From assembly GCF_901411515.1 (NCBI RefSeq), contig NZ_CABDUX010000002.1, forward strand, positions 1,612,001 through 1,676,000: 64,000 nt of DNA, written 5' to 3'. The translations under genes and the position numbers were made by a program. How positions within the stretch are numbered: the first letter of the stretch is position 1; the number at the start of each line of letters is the position of its first letter. This document shows, one piece after another, positions 40,401-58,508 of this stretch. Under the pieces are notes generated by a model, which was not told where the DNA came from, did not search any database, and saw only the letters and a list, made by a program, of their open reading frames with translations. Source of the stretch: Raoultibacter phocaeensis. Lineage in GTDB: Bacteria > Actinomycetota > Coriobacteriia > Coriobacteriales > Eggerthellaceae.

Positions 40401-41044
40401 CCGTCGGAGACCGTCTCCGCGTTGTCGGGCATCTCTGACAACCTGAGGCTCTTGCACCCCCTGAACGCCTCCTTCCCGATGCTCTTCACGCTGTCCGGCA
40501 GGTCGCTCAAGGTGAGGGTTTTGCAACCGTAGAACGCGCCGTCCCCGATGGTTTCGACTATGTTGCCGAAGCTGATGTCGTACAGGTTCGCGCAGTTCCG
40601 GAAGGCGTGGTTGCCGATGGTCTTGGGCTGCGCCCCATCCCAGGAAAAGCTCGCTTTTACAAGTTTGGAGGGCTCCGACGTACTCGCAGAGGAGGTGAAA
40701 CCGACGCTCTCGATATTGGGCATAACTCTGAAGTTGAGGTACTTGAGGGCGTCCCAGCCGCTGTCCGCCGTGAAACAAGCCCGGAGGGCCTCCCAGTTGC
40801 CGTCGGTTATGTCGGTCGCGGCTCCGGTGACCTTGATGACGGTGACGGTTGCCTTAGCTGGCGCGCCTTGCGCCGCGAGGGCATCGGCGATGGCGGTGTC
40901 CATCGCGCCTTCCGCATTGTCGTTGTACGTGACTGCGAGCTCCACGTCGGCGGCCAGCGCCGTCGCCGGCAAGAGCGCGCATGCGAGCACCGCTCCCGCC
41001 ACGACCGTCCAGAACCCCAGCAGCAACCGTTTCGCCATCGCCAT
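37445..41044 (-). CDS. BspA-type leucine-rich-repeat surface protein
   Basis: A 1,199-residue secreted protein. A signal peptide ends ATALAAD. Residues 80-265 carry BspA-like LRR_5 repeats (TIGDGAFYGCKTLTLSDLPD, SIGKEAFRGCKSLRLSEMPD). Glycine-rich beta-helix-like repeats of the form A-G-I-G-G-x-x-G-G-S-A-S occupy about 365-630 and 700-920. An MBG-like domain lies near 970-1050 and an X2-like domain (PTYLAGLAAGEHTLDVTFTD) near 1065-1145. The tail has DETGGAS, a helix and ARRRG, without a canonical LPxTG. BspA proteins bind host matrix proteins. The start at 41044 has GAGGG six bases ahead; an ATG two codons later is possible. The gene is divergent from a sensor kinase. Confidence 0.88.
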   Translation of the reverse strand: MAMAKRLLLGFWTVVAGAVLACALLPATALAADVELAVTYNDNAEGAMDTAIADALAAQGAPAKATVTVIKVTGAATDITDGNWEALRACFTADSGWDALKYLNFRVMPNIESVGFTSSASTSEPSKLVKASFSWDGAQPKTIGNHAFRNCANLYDISFGNIVETIGDGAFYGCKTLTLSDLPDSVKSIGKEAFRGCKSLRLSEMPDNAETVSDGAFQGCTDLKRMKFPAKVKTIGSRAFDIAYSDGTSHYLTQLTFVGAAPTSVAADAFGSYSAGMLICEEGNASGFDEEWMKSAFGDNASNWSVNVSNWPFTVRGGVKDQDWSWSDNNTVLTIRTATPVIVGGVATALNTIEVKNVRIVVDCGEGETADVTLSSVNINTDKGSALQVASGALDLKLETAFIAANNPVNLVSSNGAGIEHGTNPLKLSVAGTGSSGEKITIESSKGGAGIGGVDADGRRDAGNFALSSGADKAVTVKGAPGCAGIGGAEGGSATNLSFTESSAPLNVIGGAGAAGIGGGEGGSASDIKFTAGKGHTVTATGGGAAIGGGKGGNASDLLFDNDNDNVTYTFTATGGGAAIGSGTSGTASNLRFKQGTYKLTADNGGAGVGAGAGGSASGIVIEEGHNGIRPTSCSFNVTTAPAFSSGTTITAGLFKEGNISANTVYGIQAAEGCKVVDSGESRYPYQVASTKNPFVVAGGTEGTDWSYDIGKKLLKVLTTTPLDISMAEDVVSTNARIQVECPESTDTARLTINGLKVKSVFDDPALGVKKGRLDLELVGDNVLDSRLSCGLGNAVDAENKLVLTVSGEGSLVAKGSDASAGIGGNWRKGCKSFESITIKDGTITATGSHCGIGGGGEGPESGTGEGGTIVIEGGTVTAEGYGAQGIGSGSTSAPATVVITGGKVTAKGTTAAIDAGAEISGGYFGVGDATAQTVYGITPQADFKVWANEGADAAVYPFYVAKTSALKLKQGVEKTYDGKAFAADDVLEAASYGTTDAKADVTFSYRAKGTQDAPTAGLPANEGTWEVTATLPAKTVGGEPYAAATATAEVTVKAAFVYPVVEGDKGTWNKDGSDGMRFKIDASLDKFLDVAVDGTRLTAGKDYDATAGSTVIVLRPTYLAGLAAGEHTLDVTFTDGSSTAVFTIEGAPAPKPLPEGGGDETGGASLVAVGDPLGFAAGAVLTLAAFAVGGLALARRRG

Positions 41045-41113
41045 GCGAACCCTCTTTCGACCATGCCGCCTGCGCGGCTCATCGCACACTTTGAAAACAG
41101 TTTCGCAAAGAGA

Positions 41114-41122
41114 CCCCCCCCC
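41114..41122. repeat. Homopolymer of nine C in the divergent promoter region
   Basis: The tract lies 70 bases upstream of the BspA-type gene and about 200 bases upstream of the kinase gene, next to the shared regulatory motif. Tracts like this can slip during replication and switch promoter strength. Confidence 0.6.
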
Positions 41123-41132
41123 GTGGGGCGTT

Positions 41133-41165
41133 TGCGAAGCATCAGCGCCGTTTTGCGCAGAATCG
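41133..41165. promoter_or_regulatory. Shared motif upstream of the BspA-type gene and kinase gene
   Basis: Thirty-three bases beginning TGCGAAGCATC and ending GTTTTGCGCAGAATCG match the site at 42872-42904 at 29 positions. It is placed between the divergent surface gene (89 bases from its start) and the kinase gene (156 bases from its start). Confidence 0.65.
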
Positions 41166-41321
41166 GTTCGTTGCGCCCGGCTCGCGGCAGCAGAACCCCT
41201 TGCTCAAGGAGGGCTTCCGGAATGCCGACAACCCGCCAACCAAGAACCCTTTGCGCTGTTCGCCTTCGGCCCGTGGTACACTTCTGCTGCAAACCGCCCC
41301 GATGCGCCCGAGGGGGATGCT

Positions 41322-42728
41322 ATGGCCGACGCGCTGGCAACCGAGCTGTTCTGGGAATCGTTCTTCGACGTGCTCCGGCAGGACCTGTTCTGCTGGCTTT
41401 CCGTGTACGCGCTCATCGTGCTTGCCGTACGGCACCGCCTGCGCCCGCCGGCCGTGCGCAACGTTTCCTTGGGGGCCGCCGCCATCGTCGTCGGCGACGC
41501 CTTCTCGGCCGCCTTCATGACGCTCGTACCGTCGCTCAACTTCAATCTCTCCATGATCGTGCTGCTCCCGGTGTTCTTCGGCGTGCTGCACCTCGTAGCG
41601 CGCGTGCCGCTTCGCATGCGCGCGTTCGCGTTCTTGTCGGGAGCGGCGGTCGCGGCCTTCACGGTGCTCGCAGTGGACGTGGCGCTGCTGATCATGGAGA
41701 TGCAGGACATCGCCGAGGCGGCCGTGCTCGCCGTAGATGCGGCGCTGTCCCTCACGCTGCCGCTTTCGCTCGCGCCGCTGTTCGGCGGGCGCATGGCGTG
41801 GGCCATCGACGAGACGACCGACGATGCGATCTGGGGCGGGCTCTGGATCGTGCCGAGTGCGTTTTGCGCGGTGGCGGTTGCCGTGTACTCGTTTCGCTGG
41901 GAGGTTGCCATGGAGTCGCCTGCGGCGATCGGGTTCTACGCGGCCGCCTGCGTTTTGCTGGTGGCGCTTCTGGCCGTGGCGTACCGAGCGCTGTTCGCCA
42001 CCATGCAGACGACGATCGAAAACGAGCGGTTGAAGGCCGAAGCGCAGATCGGCGCGCTGCAAGCCGCCCGCTACACCGCGCTGCGCGATCACATGCGCGA
42101 GACGGCCGTCATGCGCCACGACTTCCGGCATCGCGCGCTCGTGCTCGCAACCCTCGCCGACGAGGGCGATTTGGACGGCCTCAAGGAAGAGCTCGGCGAC
42201 TACCGCCTTTTGGCGAACGAGGCGCCCGAGCGCGGCGCGCTCTGCGAGAACCCCGCGGTTGACGCCGTGTCCGCGCACTTCACCGAACGCGCCCGCGAAG
42301 AGGGCGTCGAGGTGCGCTGCCGCCTCGACCTGCCCGAGCGCCTCCCGGTGCCCGAGGGGGATTTCTGCATGGCGCTTGCGAACCTGCTGGAGAACGCCGT
42401 AGAGGCCGCAGCCGAAGCGGGCGGCGCGAACGCCGTCGGCGTGCGGGGCGAGGTGCGTCCGGGGGCCGTGGTGCTGACGGTGACCAACAGCATGAGCGAA
42501 CGCGCCCGATCCACCGTCGCAAACCCGGCGCGCCTCGACGAGGGCGACCTTGAGCAGGGCATCGCCTCCACGAAGCACGAGGGCGCCGGCATGGGCCTCG
42601 CGTCGACGGCCTCGCTTGCCCGCAAGCGCGGCGGGGCCTTCCGCGTCGAGCGAGACGACGATTCCTTCACGGCCTCGCTCGCGCTGCCCTTCGACGCCTT
42701 GGCGGGCGCATCGGACGCCACGCGCTGA
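41322..42728 (+). CDS. AgrC/LytS-type sensor histidine kinase
   Basis: A 468-residue kinase with six or seven N-terminal helices (residues 15-235), a short coiled segment (ENERLKAEAQIGALQAARYT), and a GHKL-type kinase core. The phosphorylated histidine is in MRHDFRHRALVLATL (near residue 268), the N-box is MALANLLENAVEAAAEAGG, and the G-box is GAGMGLAS. This is the HPK10 type that pairs with LytTR regulators, often in quorum or peptide sensing. The start at 41322 has GAGGGGG seven bases ahead. The regulator gene lies 310 bases downstream. No obvious precursor peptide gene was found nearby. Confidence 0.9.
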   Translation: MADALATELFWESFFDVLRQDLFCWLSVYALIVLAVRHRLRPPAVRNVSLGAAAIVVGDAFSAAFMTLVPSLNFNLSMIVLLPVFFGVLHLVARVPLRMRAFAFLSGAAVAAFTVLAVDVALLIMEMQDIAEAAVLAVDAALSLTLPLSLAPLFGGRMAWAIDETTDDAIWGGLWIVPSAFCAVAVAVYSFRWEVAMESPAAIGFYAAACVLLVALLAVAYRALFATMQTTIENERLKAEAQIGALQAARYTALRDHMRETAVMRHDFRHRALVLATLADEGDLDGLKEELGDYRLLANEAPERGALCENPAVDAVSAHFTERAREEGVEVRCRLDLPERLPVPEGDFCMALANLLENAVEAAAEAGGANAVGVRGEVRPGAVVLTVTNSMSERARSTVANPARLDEGDLEQGIASTKHEGAGMGLASTASLARKRGGAFRVERDDDSFTASLALPFDALAGASDATR

Positions 42729-43038
42729 CCGGCGAAGCGAAGGCGGCCGGGCGCAGCGCACCGGTCGGCGCGGCGGGCGCAACCCGGGCGCAGCGCACCG
42801 GATACCGAGGTGGGCGGCCCATGCGGCGCGGCGGACGGCGAGGCGCGGCAGGACGAGCGCTGCACATGGGATGCGAAACATCGGCGCTGTTTTGCGCAAA
42901 ATCGTCAAGATGGTGTCATCGCAGGCGGCGAAGATCAGAACTACAATGGTTTTCGACCGATGCCGAGCGCACAAACGACGCGTTTTGCGAAGATTCGCCT
43001 TATCGGCAAACACCGCCCCTATTTTCGAGGAGGAGACC
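42729..43038. other. Gap between kinase and response-regulator genes
   Basis: The first 140 bases are GC-rich and featureless. The rest carries the shared 33-bp motif and a partial second copy, so the regulator probably has its own promoter here. Confidence 0.6.
42872..42904. promoter_or_regulatory. Shared motif upstream of the LytTR regulator gene
   Basis: The site begins TGCGAAACATC and contains GTTTTGCGCAAAATCG. It matches 41133-41165 at 29 of 33 positions. A further partial copy, GCGTTTTGCGAAGATTCG, lies at 42980-42997. Together they suggest autoregulation. Confidence 0.65.
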
Positions 43039-43815
43039 TTGACGACAATCGCCTTGTGCGACGACGACCCCCGCGACCTCGCCCGCATTGCGGAGGCGAT
43101 CGGCGCCTTGCAGCCGCACGACGGCGATGAACTGCTCGTCTTTCCGTTCGCCTCCCCGCTCAAGCTGCTCGACCATGTGGAGCGGCAGGGCCCGTTCGAC
43201 GTGTATCTGCTCGACATCATCATGCCCGGCTCCCCTACCCAGGGCATCGAGGCCGCACGCCGGATCCGCGAGCTCGACGAGGACGCCTGCATCGTGTTTC
43301 TCACCGTGTCGCCCGAATTCGCGCTCGACGCCTTTTCGGTCCACCCCTTCGACTACCTGCTGAAGCCCGTCGAGCCCGCCCGCCTGAAGAATGTGCTGGA
43401 CAAGGCGCTCAAGCACCGGGAAGCGGATCTCGTCCCCTCCGTCGTGGTCAAGACGGCGGCGGGGCTGGTCAGGCTGCCCCTGAACGACATCGTGTACGCC
43501 GAGACCGACCAGCGCGCCGTTCGCTACCACCTGCGCAAGGGCGACGACGTGCGCTCGCTCACCCGCCGCACGTCGTTCAAGGAAGCCGTGGCGCCCCTTT
43601 TGGGAAGCGGGCGGTTCGTGTGCACCTCGTCGTCGCACGCGGTGAACCTGCACTTCATCGAGACGATGGGCAAGACCGCGCTGCGCCTGAGCGACGGAAC
43701 GGAGCTGCCCTTGACGCGCCTGCAGGCCGAAGGCGCCCGCCGCGCCTGGCTGGAGCACTGGCTGGACGGCGGCGAAGGCGCGAAGGACGCCGCAGGCCCG
43801 AACCGCGCGTTGTAA
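43039..43815 (+). CDS. LytTR-type response regulator
   Basis: A 258-residue regulator with an N-terminal receiver (ALCDDDPRDL acidic pocket, phosphorylated aspartate in VYLLDIIMPG near residue 59, T in IVFLTVS, K in YLLKPV). A C-terminal LytTR DNA-binding domain follows (IVYAETDQRAVRYHLRKGDD, FVCTSSSHAVNLHFIETM, LPLTRLQAEG). The start is TTG at 43039, chosen because AGGAGGAG lies five bases ahead and the receiver begins exactly there. It should be phosphorylated by the kinase encoded upstream. Such regulators control surface proteins, toxins or competence genes. Confidence 0.92.
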   Translation: MTTIALCDDDPRDLARIAEAIGALQPHDGDELLVFPFASPLKLLDHVERQGPFDVYLLDIIMPGSPTQGIEAARRIRELDEDACIVFLTVSPEFALDAFSVHPFDYLLKPVEPARLKNVLDKALKHREADLVPSVVVKTAAGLVRLPLNDIVYAETDQRAVRYHLRKGDDVRSLTRRTSFKEAVAPLLGSGRFVCTSSSHAVNLHFIETMGKTALRLSDGTELPLTRLQAEGARRAWLEHWLDGGEGAKDAAGPNRAL

Positions 43816-45802: not shown

Positions 45803-46486
45803 TCAGATTCCGTACTTGCGTTTGATGCGCTCGAGCTTCTTCTTCCACGGCTGGTAGAGGATGCCGAGGAAGATCACCGTCGCCACCGCATGCGTCAGGT
45901 CGAATGCGATGCCCGCAGCGTAAGCGAGCAAGGCACTCTCCCAGGTGATGGGGTGCACGAACCCGACGATGTGCCACGTATTGAGCAAGAATCCGTACAG
46001 CAGAGGCGAAACGAACCCGTACGCGTACAATAGCGGCGTGCGCTCGAACACCCCGCGCTCGGCGAGGAAGCCGGCGAAGTACCCGATGAGCCCCCATGCG
46101 TACATCTGCCACGGCGTCCACGGCCCCTGACCGAGAAACAGGTTCGAGACGAGCGCCGCTATCGCCCCCACCATGAAGCCCGCCTGCCGACCGAACACGG
46201 CGCCTGCGATGATGGCGATAGCCGAAACCGGTTTGAAATCCGCAACCGCCGCGAAGAGCAACCGTCCCGCCGCAGCAAGCGCGGCGAGCACGACCACGGG
46301 CATAATCTGGCGCAGCGCCGGTTTCGAGGTTTCGAAGCGGGCGAAGAACACGGCTATCGCCGCGAGGACCACGACAAGCACGAGCAAAGCGGTCTGATCC
46401 GTCTGCATGATCGCTCCCAAACCGAGCGCAACCGGCACGGCGAGCAGTGCCGGAATTTCAAGGTGGCGAAGCGCGCGCGATACCAT
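45803..46486 (-). CDS. ECF transporter S component, probably for cobalamin
   Basis: A 227-residue membrane protein with about six helices, the substrate-binding S component of an energy-coupling-factor transporter. Typical features are the A-x-x-x-A coupling face and the stretch AIIAGAVFGRQAGFMVGAIA followed by LGQGPWTPWQMYAWGLIGY. This is characteristic of S components for large ligands such as the CbrT type. The basic tail KKKLERIKRKYG is cytoplasmic. It is the last gene in an operon headed by a cobalamin riboswitch and transcobalamin-like proteins, so B12 is the likely ligand. The start at 46486 follows the ATPase stop by one base; an ATG at 46504 overlaps it. Neither has a strong ribosome site. 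Confidence 0.85.
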   Translation of the reverse strand: MVSRALRHLEIPALLAVPVALGLGAIMQTDQTALLVLVVVLAAIAVFFARFETSKPALRQIMPVVVLAALAAAGRLLFAAVADFKPVSAIAIIAGAVFGRQAGFMVGAIAALVSNLFLGQGPWTPWQMYAWGLIGYFAGFLAERGVFERTPLLYAYGFVSPLLYGFLLNTWHIVGFVHPITWESALLAYAAGIAFDLTHAVATVIFLGILYQPWKKKLERIKRKYGI

Positions 46487-46487
46487 G

Positions 46488-48104
46488 CTAGCTCGCCGTT
46501 CCATCTGCGTTCTCGGCGCGCCATAGGCGCAAAAATTCGTCTTCGCGGTACCGGTAGAACAGGTTTTCCGAAAAGAACGATGCGGTTTTTTCGGTGCTTA
46601 CCACCTCGCCGTCGAACAGCATGGAAACCTCGGTTGCCATGACCGAAAGGAATGCGAGATCGTGAGTGGAAAATACGATCGTCTTACCCTGCCTGTGCAG
46701 CTCGGTAAGGTTTTCGGCAAGCTTGAGCTTCGAGGGCGCATCGAGGCCTTTGGTGGGCTCGTCGAGCAACAGAAGTTCGGGGTCGGTCAAAAGCAGCTTC
46801 GCGAACGCGAGGTTCTGCTGCTGCCCGCCGCTCAGATCGAACGGATGACGGCCCTCGAGGCCGTCGAACCCGAAGCGATGCACGGCTTGGGCTACCGCCT
46901 CGTCGCCGTACCCGCGGATCTTCTGCCACTCGCGCAGCTCTTCGCCAACGCTGTCGCACACGAACAGCGCCTTGGGGTCTTGGGGCAGAAGCACCTGGCT
47001 GTTTCGCAGCGCGTTTCTCAGAGAGCCCCGTTCGGGTTTGAGCACGCCCGCCATCAGGCGCAGCATCGTCGATTTGCCTGATCCGTTGCCGCCCACGAGC
47101 GCATGGACGCCACCTTGGCGCACACGGATGTCGGCGCCCTTGAGCACCCATGCGGCTTCGCGCGCATAGCGGAAGAACACGTCGGCTGCTTCGATGCATG
47201 CGGCAGCCGCGTCTTCGGGCGCGACGGAAGGTGGCGTGGCGGCGGCCAGCTTTGCGGAAGGCGTCGTGGCAGCGACGGCCGGATTCGCGGCGGAAGGTGG
47301 CGTGGCAACGTAAGCCTGCGCGGCAGCGGAAGGCCGCGTGGCGGCGAGCGGCTCCATGGCGGAAGGCGGCGTCTCGGCCACGCCCGCTTCCCCGATCGAA
47401 TTCGCACCCGCGCCCTTCGCTGTACCCGTTGCCGGCGAGACGCTCTCGATGCGGCCTTCCGCAATGCAAAACGCTTCGGTGGCGTAATCGGCCATCGATT
47501 CGGGCGCATGGGTGGCAACCGCGACGGTGATGCCGAGTTCGCGATTGATGCGGAAAAGCGCGTGGAGGAAGTTCTTCTCGGCGATGGGATCGAGCTGGGC
47601 CGTCGGCTCGTCGAGCAGAAGCAGCCTCGGCTGCAGGGCGAGGATGCCCGCAAGGTTTACGAGCTGCTTCTGCCCGCCCGAAAGCTCGGCCGTCTGCGCA
47701 TGCAGCCAAGGTTCGATGCCGAAGAACGCCGCCGTCTCGGCCACGCGCCGGCGCATCGCATCGGGATCGATACCCGCGTTCTCGAGGCCGAATACGAGCT
47801 CATGCAGCACCGTATCGCAGACGATCTGGTTTTCGGGATTCTGAAACACGTATCCCACCAGGGAATTCGACGACACGCCATCCGCCGCGGCGACCGACCG
47901 ACCGAACACCTGCGCGCTTCCCGCACGCTCGCCGACCGGTGCGATCTCGGGTTTCAGGCACTTGAGGAGCGTGGTCTTGCCGCTTCCCGTCCTGCCGACG
48001 ATAAGCGCGAACGAACCAGACTCGATGCGCAGGTCGATGCCTTGTAATACCGGTGCGCAACCGGGATAGGAAAACCCGAAGCCCCGAAGCTCAACCGCGT
48101 CCAT
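46488..48104 (-). CDS. ECF transporter ATPase, two domains fused
   Basis: A 538-residue protein carrying both ABC ATPases of an ECF transporter. Domain 1 (residues 1-235) has GRTGSGKTT, Q-loop YVFQNPENQIV, LSGGQKQL and LLLLDEPTAQLD. Domain 2 (about 305-520) has GGNGSGKST, LLPQDPKALFV, LSGGQQQN and LLLLDEPTKGLD. Each has an H-loop histidine (ATHAPES, STHDLAF). Between them is a linker of about 60 residues made of repeated A-T-P-P-S-A-like units. The start at 48104 lies 14 bases inside the end of the T-component gene, with GAGGAAGG upstream, and translation is probably coupled. Confidence 0.95.
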   Translation of the reverse strand: MDAVELRGFGFSYPGCAPVLQGIDLRIESGSFALIVGRTGSGKTTLLKCLKPEIAPVGERAGSAQVFGRSVAAADGVSSNSLVGYVFQNPENQIVCDTVLHELVFGLENAGIDPDAMRRRVAETAAFFGIEPWLHAQTAELSGGQKQLVNLAGILALQPRLLLLDEPTAQLDPIAEKNFLHALFRINRELGITVAVATHAPESMADYATEAFCIAEGRIESVSPATGTAKGAGANSIGEAGVAETPPSAMEPLAATRPSAAAQAYVATPPSAANPAVAATTPSAKLAAATPPSVAPEDAAAACIEAADVFFRYAREAAWVLKGADIRVRQGGVHALVGGNGSGKSTMLRLMAGVLKPERGSLRNALRNSQVLLPQDPKALFVCDSVGEELREWQKIRGYGDEAVAQAVHRFGFDGLEGRHPFDLSGGQQQNLAFAKLLLTDPELLLLDEPTKGLDAPSKLKLAENLTELHRQGKTIVFSTHDLAFLSVMATEVSMLFDGEVVSTEKTASFFSENLFYRYREDEFLRLWRAENADGTAS

Positions 48105-49026
48105 CGAACACCTTCCTCGCGTCGGTAATCTGCGCCTCCCGACGCTTCCACCGCGCACGGTCGATACCCTCTGCGAGCAGGGGGAGAAACGCAAACAGCA
48201 CATAGGGCACGTAGCCCCACCAGAGCACAAGCGGACTCATGACCGGATAGAACGCGTACTGCGAGCAGGCGATCCAAACGAGTACCGCGTTGCCCACGGC
48301 CAGAAGACCAACCGCCGTGCACGCCGCAGCGTCCGCCCCCCTAAAGCGGTAGGGCTTGTACTGCGTCCGCTTTCCTGCAGAGCCCCAACCGCGCGCCCGC
48401 ATCGCATCGGCGCGTTCGAGCGAGTCTTCCATCGACCACCCCATGAGCACGGTAACCACGCGCCCCTTCCACGCAACGCGCTGGCCGAGCGTCTCAGGCA
48501 CCGCCACCGAGCAGGCGCGCTGCGCGGCTTCGATATCCCGCCCGCGCCCGACGAACTGCGGCACGAGGCGCGCCGTCATCGAGAGTACGAGCGCGATCGC
48601 AGGAGACGCATCGCCGAACAGCGCCATCACCTTGTCCGACGTGAGGATGCGCGAAGCATTCGAAAACCACAGGAACACCGCCATGAGCATGAACCCCATG
48701 CAGATGCCGTAGGCGAAGCTTTCGGCGTAGACCGCCCTGTGCCCGATGCGGAAGAGCTCGGTCGAACCCATAGCGGAAAACAGCGGGTTGATCACGGCGA
48801 TGAGCGCGACGAGCGGAAGCTGCCAGGCCGTCGTTCGCAGGGCGTTTTTCCAACCGCGAAGCCACGCGTTGGTGCACCAGGCAGCCGCCACCGTAATCGC
48901 AATGCAGACCGGCTGCATAGCCGCCATGGTGAACACGAGCACGGCCGCGAAGAAGACGAACGGCACGACCGGATGGTACCGGTCGAACACCGTCGGCTTC
49001 GATTCCGCTGTCGCCGCACCGATCAT
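48091..49026 (-). CDS. ECF transporter T component
   Basis: A 311-residue membrane scaffold protein with about six helices that joins the S component to the ATPases. It shows the EcfT coupling helices: TARLVPQFVGRGRDIEAAQR near residue 170 and the second A-R-G motif in LERADAMRARGWG near 215. The C-terminal part has two or three more helices, longer than the shortest EcfT proteins. The start at 49026 follows the DUF4430 gene stop by three bases, and the end overlaps the ATPase gene. It belongs to the B12 operon. Confidence 0.92.
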   Translation of the reverse strand: MIGAATAESKPTVFDRYHPVVPFVFFAAVLVFTMAAMQPVCIAITVAAAWCTNAWLRGWKNALRTTAWQLPLVALIAVINPLFSAMGSTELFRIGHRAVYAESFAYGICMGFMLMAVFLWFSNASRILTSDKVMALFGDASPAIALVLSMTARLVPQFVGRGRDIEAAQRACSVAVPETLGQRVAWKGRVVTVLMGWSMEDSLERADAMRARGWGSAGKRTQYKPYRFRGADAAACTAVGLLAVGNAVLVWIACSQYAFYPVMSPLVLWWGYVPYVLFAFLPLLAEGIDRARWKRREAQITDARKVFDGRG

Positions 49027-49029
49027 GCG

Positions 49030-50091
49030 CTAGACGTCGCTTCCCAAATCGAGCGTGTACACCCACGTGATGCTTTCGCCACCGTACAGGGGGTAGCCGC
49101 CGCTGCCGTAGCCGGGCGAATACCCGTTGACGTAGTAGAGCCATCCGCTCGTGGCCCCGCAGCTGAACTCGGCGAGTCCGCCGATAGAGCTCACATACGA
49201 GCCCGAACCGCCCACGCCCACACCTGTGGCGCAGAGGGCGTCGTAGACCGAAGCGCCCTCGGGAAGCGTCACCGACGTCGAGGCCAAGCACGAAGGATAG
49301 CCGTAGCTTGCGGCGCGCGAACTGTCGACGTACACCGACACCGTGATGGTCGCAGGCTCGGGCGCAGGAGCAGGCTCCGGAGCAGGTGCGGGGGCGGGAG
49401 CCGGGGTTTCGGCAGGAGCGGGCCCGGCAGAAGCGCCTTCGGACGGAGCTTCCGGCTGGTTTGCGGAGACGCCGTCTTGTGTAGCGGCCTCGGCATCCTC
49501 TGAAGCCTCCTCCGCCGCAGCAACATCGTCCGCTTCCTCTTCGGTTTTCTTGTCTTCTTCGACCTTCGGCTCAGGTGCTTCGGGCTCGGCCTCTGGCTCT
49601 GGCTTCGGCGCTGTTTGCTCGGTCGTGCGGAATAGATCGTCGGGAAGGATGGAAAGCCCCGCAGCCTGCGCCGTCGCAACGCCCACGACGCAGACGAGCA
49701 CGAGCGCTATGCAGGCCGCCGCAAGGGTTGCCGGCCGCTTCCAAGCAGGCCGCTTCGCCGAGGTACCGACATTGTCGGGCTGAACGGCCTCGGCGATGCC
49801 GGGAGCGACCCGACCTGCCGCGTCGGTTATATCGCTTGCGGGGAAAGCTTCGGGCATCGCCGCCGTTGCGGCAGCGTCAGGCGATTTTCCCTGTTCGCCG
49901 CTCTGCTCGGACACCGCCGCCGTGGCCGCAGCGTCGGGCGCATCGTTTCGGCATGGCTGAGGCATCGCCGCCGTTGATGCAGCGTCGAAAGAATCCTCCT
50001 GCTCGACGCTCTGCTCGGGCATTTCGGACGTCGTGTCGGGATCGGCCGAAAGCCCCCGTTTCTCGGTGTTCTGTTCGGAATGCTCTGACAC
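49030..50091 (-). CDS. Membrane-anchored DUF4430 (transcobalamin-like C-terminal) protein
   Basis: A 353-residue protein with an unusual N-terminal cytoplasmic tail of about 115 residues made of three degenerate D-A-A-(A/S)-T-A-A-(M/V) repeats, then one membrane helix (LAAACIALVLVCVVGVATAQ). A long acidic and Pro/Ala/Glu-rich stalk follows. The C-terminal DUF4430 domain, from about residue 255, has PEGASVYDAL, GGLAEFSCGATSGWLYYVNG and GESITWVY, the hallmark of the beta domain of intrinsic factor and transcobalamin. It should display a cobalamin-binding or cobalamin-handling domain just outside the membrane next to the ECF transporter. The start is GTG at 50091 with AGGAG eight bases ahead. 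Confidence 0.85.
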   Translation of the reverse strand: MSEHSEQNTEKRGLSADPDTTSEMPEQSVEQEDSFDAASTAAMPQPCRNDAPDAAATAAVSEQSGEQGKSPDAAATAAMPEAFPASDITDAAGRVAPGIAEAVQPDNVGTSAKRPAWKRPATLAAACIALVLVCVVGVATAQAAGLSILPDDLFRTTEQTAPKPEPEAEPEAPEPKVEEDKKTEEEADDVAAAEEASEDAEAATQDGVSANQPEAPSEGASAGPAPAETPAPAPAPAPEPAPAPEPATITVSVYVDSSRAASYGYPSCLASTSVTLPEGASVYDALCATGVGVGGSGSYVSSIGGLAEFSCGATSGWLYYVNGYSPGYGSGGYPLYGGESITWVYTLDLGSDV

Positions 50092-50100
50092 GGTACGCTC

Positions 50101-52203
50101 CTATCGGTCTGCGGTGCGGGCAGCTTCGGTACGCCTGCGCACCGCAAGGGCGACGCCTGCAATCGCGCAGACTCCAAGCGCCGCGATCGGTGCGACCGCA
50201 ACGCCGTCCCCTGTTTGCACGAGCTTGTTCTGAGGATTGTCCTGCTGATCACTGGGCTTCTGAGCGTTCGCCTCAACTCCGGGAAGCCCCGCCACTCCGT
50301 CGGCAGCCTGCAGGTACACGTTGTATGCTGTACCGGTGTTCTTGAAACCCTGATAGGCGACCATCGCGCGGAAACCCTGCTCAGTTGCTATGTCGTTCAC
50401 GCTGGTGCCGAAGATGAACCCGGTGCGCGACTCGTTGGCGAACGACAGCAGAGCCGACACGGGCGTCGCACCGTTCTCGACGGCCCACGACGAAGCCGGG
50501 TCGATGCCTGCGGCAGCAAGCGCGATCACCGCAACTGCCGTCGAGTTCACGTTGGACTCAGTCGCACCCAGCGAAGGGAAGCCGCCGTCGGCGAGTTGCA
50601 GGTTCTGGAGCGCGGCAAGTGCGGCCTGCAACGCCGTCTCGACGCGCGCATCGCTTCGGTACGGGGCGAGAGCGGCGATCACCATAGCCGTTATGTCGGC
50701 ATCAGCAGTGGCGCCCTGAAGCGCGAATCCGCCATCATCAAGCTGACCTGCAAGTATATCATTGATCAGCTGCTGCTCGGTTTGGACTCTCGCAAAAGCT
50801 GCGTAGGATCCGCTCTTGTAGGCGAGCAGCGCGAACGCGCGTCCGTTGACCATACTCGTGGCCATCGCTGTCGAACCGAGCGCATCGATCAGGCTCGTCC
50901 CGTTCTGGTCGACCACCGAGGCCGCATCGACGCCGAGAGCCGTAAGGGCAAGGATGTTCTTCTGCAAGGCCGTCGGGTTGTCAACGCCGATCGAGGCGCG
51001 TGCCGCAGCGACGAGCGCGTTTTCGTCGGCGGCAGACGCCTGGCCGATCGCGGCGAGGTCGAGCGCTTCCCACGGCTCGGCTGTTCCCGCAAACGAGCCC
51101 GCGATCGTCGAGAACAGCTGGGTATACGCTTTGCTATCGAGGGCGACCGGGGTGTACTTCGAATCCTCGGGCTTCTGAACCGGCTTTCCGGGCGCAATTT
51201 CCGATCCGTCGGTTGCGGCCGCGATGATGGCGGCCCAATCCGAGGGCGCGACCGCAGTCGGATAGCTCGACCATGCGAACTGGTAGGTTACCCCGTCAGC
51301 GAGCGGCTCGCTCTTCTGGCCGTCTGTTCCGCTGGCATACGTTTCGTCCTTGTACGTAGACCACAAGAGCGAAAAGTCGGACGCGTTCGCAACCACGGTG
51401 CCGTCGTTCATCGTTACCGATGACAAGTAGTCACCCGAAAACGCATAGCCTTTGATATCCCCCGCAGCTTTCGCGGCAGCGAACAGATCTTCCACCGTCG
51501 CACCGGATGCGAACTCGTACTTCTTGTTCATGACGATGTCGGGGTCGCCCGTGAAACCAAGCCCGTAGACGATCGTCAGCGTAGCCGTGCCGGCCTTCGC
51601 ACCGGTGCCAGCCATCCCCGTTCCATCTGTTGCCGCCGAAACGATAGGAGTCCAATCAGACGGCGCTGCAGCTGTCGGGTAGCTCGACCATGCGAACTGG
51701 TAGGTCACCCCGTCGGCGAGCGCCTCGGTACCCTGGGCTTCACCGGGATTAACAACGTACGAGCCGTTCTTGAAGTTGCCCCAATACAGCGAGCCCGCCG
51801 CATTGTTCTTGATCTCCGTTCCGTCGTTTTTGGTTACCGAGTTGAGGGTGGATCCGTACCCGCCGTCGACGAACGCGTAATCCTTGATATCCCCCGCCGC
51901 CTTTGCAGCTGCGAAGAGGTCTTCGACCGTAGCGCCTTCGGCGAACGGGTACTTCTTGTTCACGACGATATCGGGATCGCCGTTCATGCCGAGCCCGTAC
52001 ACGATCGTGAGCGTCGCGGTCCCGACCGCTTGCTCCGGCGAGGCGGCGGCTGGCGCTGCAGCGGCTTCGGCCCCCTCGGCGTACGATGCTGCCGGTACCA
52101 TACCTAAGCAGAGCGCCACCGCAAGCAGTACGGCCCCGAGCTTCATGAATACCTGCTGATACGTGCCCGATCGGGCGATAGAGCGAGCGCTTGTTCGATG
52201 CAC
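50101..52203 (-). CDS. Surface protein with two DUF4430 domains and an alpha6/alpha6 domain, probable B12 binder
   Basis: A 700-residue secreted protein. A signal peptide ends PAASYAEG near residue 44. Two DUF4430 domains (about 61-175 and 205-318) share the stretch TATLTIVYGLG and the end GVTYQFAWSSYP. Residues 350-640 form an alpha6/alpha6 prenyltransferase-like barrel with LDDGGFALQGATADADITAM and LADGGFPSLGATESNVNSTA repeats. Human intrinsic factor and transcobalamin combine the same two folds in the other order. The tail has LVQTGD, a helix and RRRTEAAR, a sortase-like anchor. The start is GTG at 52203, chosen for AAAGGAG seven bases ahead; the in-frame ATG at 52146 lacks one. A cobalamin riboswitch lies upstream. 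Cobalamin capture is inferred. Confidence 0.87.
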   Translation of the reverse strand: MHRTSARSIARSGTYQQVFMKLGAVLLAVALCLGMVPAASYAEGAEAAAAPAAASPEQAVGTATLTIVYGLGMNGDPDIVVNKKYPFAEGATVEDLFAAAKAAGDIKDYAFVDGGYGSTLNSVTKNDGTEIKNNAAGSLYWGNFKNGSYVVNPGEAQGTEALADGVTYQFAWSSYPTAAAPSDWTPIVSAATDGTGMAGTGAKAGTATLTIVYGLGFTGDPDIVMNKKYEFASGATVEDLFAAAKAAGDIKGYAFSGDYLSSVTMNDGTVVANASDFSLLWSTYKDETYASGTDGQKSEPLADGVTYQFAWSSYPTAVAPSDWAAIIAAATDGSEIAPGKPVQKPEDSKYTPVALDSKAYTQLFSTIAGSFAGTAEPWEALDLAAIGQASAADENALVAAARASIGVDNPTALQKNILALTALGVDAASVVDQNGTSLIDALGSTAMATSMVNGRAFALLAYKSGSYAAFARVQTEQQLINDILAGQLDDGGFALQGATADADITAMVIAALAPYRSDARVETALQAALAALQNLQLADGGFPSLGATESNVNSTAVAVIALAAAGIDPASSWAVENGATPVSALLSFANESRTGFIFGTSVNDIATEQGFRAMVAYQGFKNTGTAYNVYLQAADGVAGLPGVEANAQKPSDQQDNPQNKLVQTGDGVAVAPIAALGVCAIAGVALAVRRRTEAARTADR

Positions 52204-52299
52204 TGTCCTTCTCCTTTCATCGCATCTGACATCGAAAAAAGAAGACAGCATCGATTCCGCAGCATACGCTGCGGCCCGCTTCGGCCTTGCACGTCGAGC

Positions 52300-52475
52300 C
52301 GAGGTCGCACGCGACTCTCGGGTTTGCGCTCGCAGTAACTCGCTGCTTACGCAGACACGCTTCTCGGTAAGTGTTCTGGCTGAATGGCATGAGCCATATC
52401 ACAGTGGCGGTACCGTGCGGGATTTGCACCCGACTTTCCTCACGCGAGACGTCTTCTTTCGTTCGGGAGATTATA
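52300..52475 (-). promoter_or_regulatory. Cobalamin riboswitch
   Basis: On the minus strand, GGGTGCAAATCCCGCACGG is followed by ACCGCCACTGTGA and, after a variable stem, by AGCCAGAACACTTACC at 52381-52366. These are the conserved core and B12-box of the cobalamin (RF00174) riboswitch. Boundaries are approximate. It lies about 100 bases ahead of the surface-protein start, so adenosyl- or methylcobalamin should repress the whole uptake operon. Confidence 0.92.
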
Positions 52476-52598: not shown

Positions 52599-52964
52599 GT
52601 GGCGGAGTTTTCCGAACGCGTTCTCGACATTGTGAAGCAGATTCCCCGAGGCAAAGTTGCCTCGTACGGGCAGATCGCCCGCATGATGGGATCGCCCCGC
52701 TCGGCGCGCTACGTCGGCTATGCTTTGCGCGGAAACCACGACCCCATCGTTATCCCGTGCCATCGCGTCGTATTCAAAGACGGCCGCATCTGCGAAGGCT
52801 ACGCGTTCGGCGGCCCCGAGGTGCAGCGCGCGCTCCTCGAAGACGAGGGCGTGGCGTTTCTCGATGACATGCATATCGACATGGACGCGTGTCTGTGGCA
52901 ACCTGAAGCCGATCGCCTTTCTCGCCCGCCCGACATCGACTGGGAGAAAGAGATGGGGCTCTAA
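52599..52964 (+). CDS. MGMT-fold alkyltransferase-like protein
   Basis: A 121-residue protein consisting of the C-terminal winged-helix domain of O6-alkylguanine-DNA alkyltransferase without its N-terminal domain. It has IPRGKVASYGQIARMMGSPR (residues 15-34) and the active-site motif IPCHRVV (cysteine near residue 53), so the acceptor cysteine is kept, unlike in ATL proteins where it is Trp. The arginine finger region is ARYVGYALRGN. The start is GTG at 52599, with AGGAGG about ten bases ahead; the frame runs further upstream into the riboswitch but with no ribosome site. The last 35 residues (ADRLSRPPDIDWEKEMGL) are not part of the fold. Confidence 0.88.
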   Translation: MAEFSERVLDIVKQIPRGKVASYGQIARMMGSPRSARYVGYALRGNHDPIVIPCHRVVFKDGRICEGYAFGGPEVQRALLEDEGVAFLDDMHIDMDACLWQPEADRLSRPPDIDWEKEMGL

Positions 52965-56657: not shown

Positions 56658-56924
56658 GGGTTCATGATACCGCACTTCGCACCCATCGCGCCCGCGCCGT
56701 GCGGGCGCCGCCCAATCCCCGCCGCCGCGCGGACCCGCAGCGCTTCGAGGCCCGGGCAGCTTCGAGCCCGCGTTCGAAAACCGCAGATGCACCCGAGCCG
56801 GAATATGCGCGACCGCCGAGGCGCTGCACCCGCAAAGTGTTCTATAATACACAGGCGTCGGGTAGCGGCTTCAGGTTCATCCGGCTCAGCGGCAGCGTCG
56901 TTCATACGTGCACGAGGGGGATCC

Positions 56925-58508
56925 ATGCTAAACGCGAATGCGGAATCGTTGCGGGAGAAAGCCACGGCGCTCAGCAACGCTCTGTACCTTGAAAGCCCGT
57001 TGGTCCTCGGGTTCGCCATACAACTCCTCTGGCTGTTCATCCTGTTCTTCCAAGCGTCCTTCTACTTCGACAACCTGCACGCGATCGACAAGCCGCACTA
57101 CCTCCTTCTCACGCTCGCGTTTCTGATCGCGTTTCCCGCAACCTGCTTCGCCGTCGGATACTACCGCGAAAAGGTCACCGCGCAGCTGCGCAAGAAATCG
57201 GTGCATTTCCTCACGGGGCTCTGCGGGACGATCGGCATGCTGTGCGCGAGCTGCATCGTGCTGTCGGCCGGCCAGGCGCCCTTTGCGCTCGCCTTGGCGG
57301 GAACCGTGCTCGCAAGCGTTGCGTGCGCGCCCTCGACGCTTCTGTGGGGGGAAGCGGCGCGAAGGCGGGATCAGAGCATCCTGGCAATCGCAACCATCCT
57401 CTCGCTTTTGCTGGCGTTCGCCTTCATACTCGTCATGGCCTACCTGACCGAGGTGAGCTCTGCGAGCATAACGGTCGTCGCATGCCTCTGCCCCCTTTTC
57501 TCGGTCGTCTTCGTCTACAAGGCGCAGCACGACAACGAAAGCTACTTCAAGCCGCAGGAGTTCGTAGTTCTGCCCGACGGCACCAAACGGGCGAAGGAGG
57601 GCAAGGCCTGGGTGGAGACTTTCCATAATCTGCGCATCAGCAAGCGGGCGTTTGCGCTCAGGCTGGGCAAGAGCGCGCTTCCCTTCGGCATCGTGTACGG
57701 CTCTTTTCTGCTCGAAGGCTATCGCTCGCTCCTCTGGAAAGCTCCCCTTACCCAGGATTTCCCCTTCGAGACGATCTGCCCCCTCATCGCCATCCTGCTG
57801 TTCACCGGATTGTTTTTCTGGCCCTTCCGAAGCGACGACGGCTCGTACGCCTCCCACCGGCTCGTGCCCTTTTTCCTGGTGTTCCTGCTGTTCTCGTGCT
57901 CCCAAAGCTTTTTCGACGCGGGCAACCCGAACTACGCCTGCGTGGCCCTGCTGGCGTTGGCAAGCGTCGCGTTCTGGCTTTACCCGGCCGAGCTCACCAC
58001 GAGGTACCGCGTTTCCTCCATGATCACGTTCGGGTTCTTCAACGGCTTTCTCACGATCGGGTTGCTCGCGGTGTTCGTCTTGAACGTCTTCGTGCCCCTC
58101 GAAACCATCCCCTACCTCCCCGTCACCCTCGTCCGCCTCGCACTGCTCTTGCTCGGCTACGTTTCCCTCGTCACCAACGACCAGATGCGCGAGATCGCAA
58201 CCCTTGCCAGCCCGCAGGCCGAAGAGCTCGCGCACAAGAGCGGCGAAAAGCCGCATCGCGCGCACTTCAGCGAGCGCTGCCATCTCGTGGCGGACACGTT
58301 TTTGCTCTCGCAACGCGAGCTGGAAATCCTCTGCCTCTTGGCGAAGGGCCGCAACGCAGCCTACGTGCAGAAGGAGCTCGTCATCTCCGAAGGCACCGTG
58401 CGGACGCACATGAGGAACATCTACCGCAAGCTCGACGTGCACAGCCAGCAGGAGCTCATGGATCTCGTCGACACCGTGGGCCGTCGCCCGACCGGTCCCG
58501 CGCGCTGA
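56925..58508 (+). CDS. Transmembrane LuxR-family transcriptional regulator
   Basis: A 527-residue protein with an MFS-like membrane domain of about 12 helices (residues 30-440), a central cytoplasmic loop (AQHDNESYFKPQEFVVLPDG) and a C-terminal LuxR helix-turn-helix. The latter reads FLLSQRELEILCLLAKGRNA followed by LVISEGTVRTHMRNIYRKLD. It is the same type as the protein encoded at 9656-11179 but clearly diverged. It converges with the DASS transporter gene of the second molybdoenzyme locus and is the likely regulator of that locus. The start at 56925 has GAGGGGG five bases upstream. Confidence 0.9.
   Translation: MLNANAESLREKATALSNALYLESPLVLGFAIQLLWLFILFFQASFYFDNLHAIDKPHYLLLTLAFLIAFPATCFAVGYYREKVTAQLRKKSVHFLTGLCGTIGMLCASCIVLSAGQAPFALALAGTVLASVACAPSTLLWGEAARRRDQSILAIATILSLLLAFAFILVMAYLTEVSSASITVVACLCPLFSVVFVYKAQHDNESYFKPQEFVVLPDGTKRAKEGKAWVETFHNLRISKRAFALRLGKSALPFGIVYGSFLLEGYRSLLWKAPLTQDFPFETICPLIAILLFTGLFFWPFRSDDGSYASHRLVPFFLVFLLFSCSQSFFDAGNPNYACVALLALASVAFWLYPAELTTRYRVSSMITFGFFNGFLTIGLLAVFVLNVFVPLETIPYLPVTLVRLALLLLGYVSLVTNDQMREIATLASPQAEELAHKSGEKPHRAHFSERCHLVADTFLLSQRELEILCLLAKGRNAAYVQKELVISEGTVRTHMRNIYRKLDVHSQQELMDLVDTVGRRPTGPAR

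Follow-up and report, generated by a model that had tools for sequence, protein, structure and literature searches.

Does a Gram-positive bacterium pass vitamin B12 from its cell wall to a transporter in its membrane? The question is raised by an operon of Raoultibacter phocaeensis, located on the minus strand at positions 45803-52464 of the 64,000-nucleotide stretch of DNA that was analysed (the window), in which an AdoCbl riboswitch is followed by the genes for P1, P2, EcfT, a fused EcfA1-EcfA2 and an S-component (Table 1). To our knowledge, the common view of ECF transporters is that they need no extracellular binding protein. The five genes nearly abut, the first two spacings being 9 and 3 nt and the next two junctions overlapping by 14 and 17 nt, and the fusion of EcfA1 and EcfA2 corrects the gene reading of the initial annotation. 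On the other side of the riboswitch, family searches placed a divergent MGMT gene (52602-52964), a neighbour that recurs in at least two relatives. Elsewhere in the window, positions 56664-58508 encode a membrane protein rich in hydrophobic segments that ends in a LuxR-type HTH, a kind of regulator common in Eggerthellaceae, and positions 40548-43815, read by eye, hold an AgrC-like-looking sensor kinase adjoining a LytTR-like response regulator.

Table 1. Features of the R. phocaeensis operon, in window coordinates.
Feature	Position	Strand	Basis
AdoCbl (cobalamin) riboswitch aptamer, RF01482	52321..52464	-	cmscan
5' edge of aptamer, putative anti-sequestor, alternative partner of anti-SD arm	52445..52466	-	folding energy
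Hairpin over Shine-Dalgarno sequence and GTG start of P1, putative off-state	52195..52254	-	folding
P1, secreted, 700 aa: two beta-grasp (SLBB/DUF4430-like) domains, alpha6/alpha6 toroid, sortase-like tail	50101..52203	-	
P1 beta-grasp domain 1, aa 61-173	51685..52023	-	AF2 model; P2-derived profile, i-E 4e-9
P1 beta-grasp domain 2, aa 205-313	51265..51591	-	AF2 model; P2-derived profile, i-E 8e-8
P1 alpha/alpha toroid, aa 349-640	50284..51159	-	12 helices in AF2 model
P1 C-terminal sorting signal: LVQTGD, hydrophobic stretch, RRR tail	50104..50223	-	sequence
P2, 353 aa: N-terminal stretch, hydrophobic segment, Pro/Glu-rich linker, DUF4430	49030..50091	-	
P2 DUF4430 domain, aa 245-353, transcobalamin beta-domain fold	49030..49359	-	Pfam; model
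EcfT (CbiQ-like) transmembrane coupling subunit	48091..49026	-	conserved place by ECF ATPase
EcfA1-EcfA2 fused ATPase	46488..48104	-	ABC_tran twice; ECF_ATPase_1, 2.5e-84
S-component, CbrT-like (cobalamin)	45803..46504	-	PDB sequence match

The initial annotation had placed a cobalamin riboswitch at the head of an operon for an ECF transporter and an anchored DUF4430 protein, and all three elements were recovered, the transporter through clear family matches of its ATPase and S-component. The aptamer matched RF01482 over the full length of the model (1-149) with 62.6 bits (E 4e-9), exceeding the gathering threshold of 50 bits; no second cobalamin riboswitch was found in whole-genome searches. 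It lies 118 nt from the downstream P1 gene, for which GTG 52203 is the more likely start than ATG 52251, since a Shine-Dalgarno sequence, AAAGGAGAAGG, precedes the former. Simple scans of the leader itself found neither a sigma-70 promoter nor a terminator. Folding of the leader yielded a 60-nt hairpin of about -25 kcal/mol over the P1 start, and the anti-SD arm of this hairpin can form a duplex of about -19 kcal/mol with the 5' edge of the aptamer, which is its best partner in the leader outside the Shine-Dalgarno region, both here and in a congener (G001). When AdoCbl is scarce, the arm would thus be held by the aptamer edge and P1 would be translated; when AdoCbl is present, formation of the first helix of the aptamer would free the arm to fold onto the Shine-Dalgarno sequence and the GTG, and expression would fall. 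Both this mechanism and the direction of regulation are drawn from the thermodynamics of two related leaders, the folding of which makes an RBS-sequestering switch with repression of P1 by AdoCbl plausible. At three other loci (L110, L114 and L116), terminator-like hairpins, read by eye, take the place of the sequestering hairpin, and control there appears to be by an intrinsic terminator. At two of these loci, a further S-component gene lies some 6-7 kb away from the B12 operon and is preceded by an FMN riboswitch (L110, 3374-3541; L116, 2211-2371).

The transporter genes point to the same ligand. The only PDB sequence match of the S-component was 6fnp, CbrT of Lactobacillus delbrueckii (E 4.3e-9, residues 65-232); its Pfam matches (PF07155, PF20221 and PF12822) are vitamin-type or uncharacterised. 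CbrT binds and transports cobalamin in vitro, and also binds cobinamide (PMC5997447). By homology the S-component is of CbrT type and is predicted to bind cobalamin, and this match is the strongest single pointer to the likely ligand of the operon. EcfT gave no match in Pfam or NCBIfam; it is a membrane protein, the homologues of which in relatives hold the same place adjoining the ECF ATPase.

In order to gauge the need of the host for B12, corrinoid-dependent proteins and enzymes of B12 synthesis were sought in the genome, the latter through a few marker families only. R. phocaeensis encodes a MetH-type protein and corrinoid proteins with a DxHxxG motif, one of which lies beside methyltransferase-like genes; a single region (G000:C2:276580-357830) holds three small corrinoid proteins, at least one within a methyltransferase cluster, which probably use B12 for methyl transfer. 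Neither CbiC nor CobS was found in the genome, and just two TP-methylases were present, one of them in a SUMT-HemD fusion beside HemC. With B12-dependent proteins but no CbiC or CobS, the host therefore appears, on these marker families, to depend on imported, complete cobamides. An ABC importer of FecCD type, together with a binding protein, is encoded as well and could serve iron or B12, so that the P1/P2/ECF operon may not be the sole B12 route.

P2 has a single hydrophobic segment (aa about 117-145), and its DUF4430 domain scored above the Pfam cut-off (45.4 bits versus 23.8; E 1.2e-11 to 1.3e-12). A search of the PDB by sequence alone with a P2 profile gave chance-like matches only, so that fold comparison was needed. 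The model of the domain (pLDDT 94) matched the beta domains of intrinsic factor, haptocorrin and transcobalamin at Z 13-14, followed by a DUF4430-type bacterial structure, 3u7z, at Z 12.4, and then by other beta-grasp folds at Z 8; in this comparison, the modelled domain is a beta-grasp fold closest to the animal B12 carriers. Alignment of the P2 family with human transcobalamin by hhalign, using a human sequence checked against the PDB, gave E 7e-5 at a probability of only 64%. Many P2 orthologues, as read from the alignment, carry a lipobox Cys in place of the membrane segment; attachment to the membrane is thus kept by two different means.

The AF2 model of P1, built from 19 sequences, gave the two beta-grasp domains and the toroid at good confidence, with linkers of low confidence. 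The initial annotation had described P1 as two DUF4430 domains plus a barrel; the architecture holds, as two beta-grasp domains and a 12-helix toroid, but Pfam DUF4430 (PF14478) did not reach its cut-off in P1 and matched five of the 19 aligned P1-type proteins, so that the DUF4430 homology of both domains comes from iterated profiles and the AF2 model rather than from Pfam. The proposed folds of intrinsic factor and transcobalamin were borne out by structure prediction and fold comparison in the P1 toroid, as in the P2 domain: a Foldseek search with the P1 model placed transcobalamin chains among its top matches, and the toroid compared with intrinsic factor at Z 18.5, transcobalamin at Z 17.9 and haptocorrin at Z 17.4. 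PF01122, the intrinsic factor/transcobalamin family ('Eukaryotic cobalamin-binding protein'), had no match in P1 and weak matches in two of the 19 aligned proteins (best E 0.003); P1 may work like this family without formal membership of it.

The sorting motif of P1 is non-canonical. In its relatives the tail reads LAPTGD, LAQTGD or MPQTGD, Gram_pos_anchor was matched in two, and SLH domains replace the sortase-like tail in three; six sortase genes are present in the R. phocaeensis genome. No P1 relatives were found on viral contigs. At five loci of other Coriobacteriia (L071, L073, L076, L087 and L107), very large surface proteins stand in the position of P1; they are 1300-2400 aa long and contain two to four beta-grasp domains or a toroid.

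Conservation was examined in two ways, across 60 relatives and across loci gathered by similarity to P1. An S-component was present in 46 of the 60 relatives and a P1 match in only 10, and a P1-type protein is therefore not essential to the transporter. Seven genomes (G000, G001, G002, G003, G013, G032 and G039) held both RF01482 and the S-component, and in all seven the two were linked on one contig and one strand with the riboswitch upstream. Of 45 distinct S-component loci, 30 had a DUF4430 gene on the upstream side; another three were cut or masked. Independently of these features, 24 P1-type loci were collected from a scan of genome contigs by P1 similarity alone, using a pattern from a four-member alignment; they range from Adlercreutzia, Slackia and Enterorhabdus to Paenibacillus, Bacillus, Cohnella and Clostridium drakei. 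A cobalamin-family riboswitch (RF01482, RF01689 or RF00174) was above cut-off near the P1-type gene at 16 of these loci and weak at two more, and several of the others had no upstream sequence. In C. drakei (L117, 208-20000), three cobalamin riboswitches fall within 20 kb, together with several DUF4430 proteins, one toroid protein and two S-components; this region is an expanded version of the P1/P2/ECF system.

B12 uptake by the operon, the role first proposed for it, is strongly supported by the riboswitch, the CbrT-like S-component and a linkage conserved in other genera and in Bacillota, and we regard it as highly probable that this is a B12-repressed cobalamin scavenging operon, a judgement that concerns the scavenging. 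The further proposal of wall and membrane anchoring is supported by the sortase-like tail of P1 and the membrane segment of P2. From the gene content, predicted folds, riboswitch match, linkage across genera and CbrT match observed here, we infer that P1 and P2 may bind cobamides and that a hand-off may take place between them. P1, anchored by sortase in the wall, would capture corrinoids in the manner of intrinsic factor, using the toroid and the beta-grasp domains; P2, held by one helix, would expose its DUF4430 domain at the surface of the membrane and pass the ligand to the CbrT-like S-component, and the dedicated EcfT/EcfA1A2 module would drive import inward. For a strict relay from P1 to P2 to the transporter, we put the chances at about even; for the composite picture in which a wall-anchored intrinsic-factor-like protein feeds a binding domain dedicated to a CbrT-type ECF transporter, this domain being fixed to the membrane by a transmembrane helix in some lineages and by a lipid anchor in others, so that B12 crosses the Gram-positive wall in a two-step relay, our confidence stops just short of even.

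Corrinoids may instead be imported without sequential hand-off, with P1 concentrating or storing B12 at the wall and P2 or the S-component alone feeding the transporter, a reading to which we give a considerable chance, if below one half. It would account for the more frequent adjacency to ECF genes of P2-type genes than of P1-type toroid proteins, for the replacement of P1 in relatives by quite different large SLBB proteins, and for the description of Lactobacillus CbrT without any P1/P2-like partner (PMC5997447). Joint action is suggested, however, by ECF operons of Actinomycetota and of Bacillota in which a P1-type gene lies next to a P2-type gene.

It is improbable that the ECF part alone serves B12 while P1 and P2 bind another ligand, such as a carbohydrate, a terpenoid or a metal. 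The P1 toroid is closest in fold to terpene cyclases and carbohydrate-active enzymes, the former outscoring intrinsic factor (Z 21 versus 18.5), so that the toroid fold alone is not specific for B12 carriers; Prenyltrans matched weakly in P1 and down to E 3.4e-14 in its relatives, and the title of 3u7z, a structure with the DUF4430 fold, reads 'putative metal binding protein'. Against this stand a repeatedly observed linkage to cobalamin riboswitches and CbrT-like genes, and a P2 beta-grasp domain that fits the B12 carriers far better than other folds. P1 was likewise considered as a terpene cyclase or carbohydrate enzyme in its own right, given these fold matches, and set aside because the cobalamin-riboswitch linkage and the beta-grasp match favour B12. 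Least probable is an ECF system for cobalt or another metal, CbiMNQO-like, for although the ATPase also scores well against CbiO models, the S-component resembles CbrT and has no Pfam match to CbiM.

The operon type has a precedent in prediction. As far as the available text of Burroughs et al. (2007; PMC1796856) extends, it describes SLBB-toroid surface proteins with Gram-positive anchors, encoded in one operon with a second SLBB paralogue and CbiO/CbiQ, proposes B12 scavenging by hosts without B12 synthesis, and derives the animal carriers from low-GC Gram-positives. The R. phocaeensis operon likewise combines a toroid-SLBB surface protein, a second SLBB protein and CbiO/CbiQ-like ECF genes, shares the SLBB and alpha/alpha toroid fusion, the signal peptide and the sortase anchor, and belongs to a host which, by marker families, lacks key enzymes of B12 synthesis. 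It is thus a further case of the operon type predicted there, in Coriobacteriia, a class not among the hosts that this text names (low-GC Gram-positives, planctomycetes and euryarchaea). The initial claim of novelty accordingly holds for the taxonomic group and not for the operon type or for B12 scavenging, both already proposed in that text. The toroid is N- or C-terminal in the proteins of that report, whereas two SLBB domains precede it in P1; the word riboswitch is absent from the available text and the S-component is not discussed in it, both being features of the present operon. A literature search that covered few subscription journals found no paper testing the 2007 prediction. New here are the CbrT link, the riboswitch linkage across two phyla, the two alternative P2 anchors and a plausible RBS-sequestering switch.

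Comparison with other systems sets the operon apart in further respects. ECF-CbrT of L. delbrueckii shares with it an ECF module and S-component homology over the membrane domain, but draws on a module shared with FolT2, whereas R. phocaeensis has a dedicated module, a riboswitch and two SLBB proteins (PMC5997447). Human intrinsic factor, haptocorrin and transcobalamin have in common with P1, by model, a toroid plus a beta-grasp domain; the animal carriers are soluble proteins with a receptor, in which the toroid is followed by one beta domain, whereas in the wall-anchored P1 two beta domains precede the toroid. BtuG and BtuH of Bacteroides, from the available text of the reports (PMC6143338, PMC8941943) and in part from general knowledge, likewise capture B12 at the surface of a gut bacterium, but are different proteins of an outer-membrane, TonB-type system.

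The P1/P2/ECF system raises the question of whether every ECF transporter does without a delivery protein. Being a compact operon with a known type of transporter, it also opens to direct test the idea, put forward in 2007, that the B12 carriers of animals arose from surface proteins of bacteria, and it would reveal how gut Gram-positives that make no B12 compete for cobamides.
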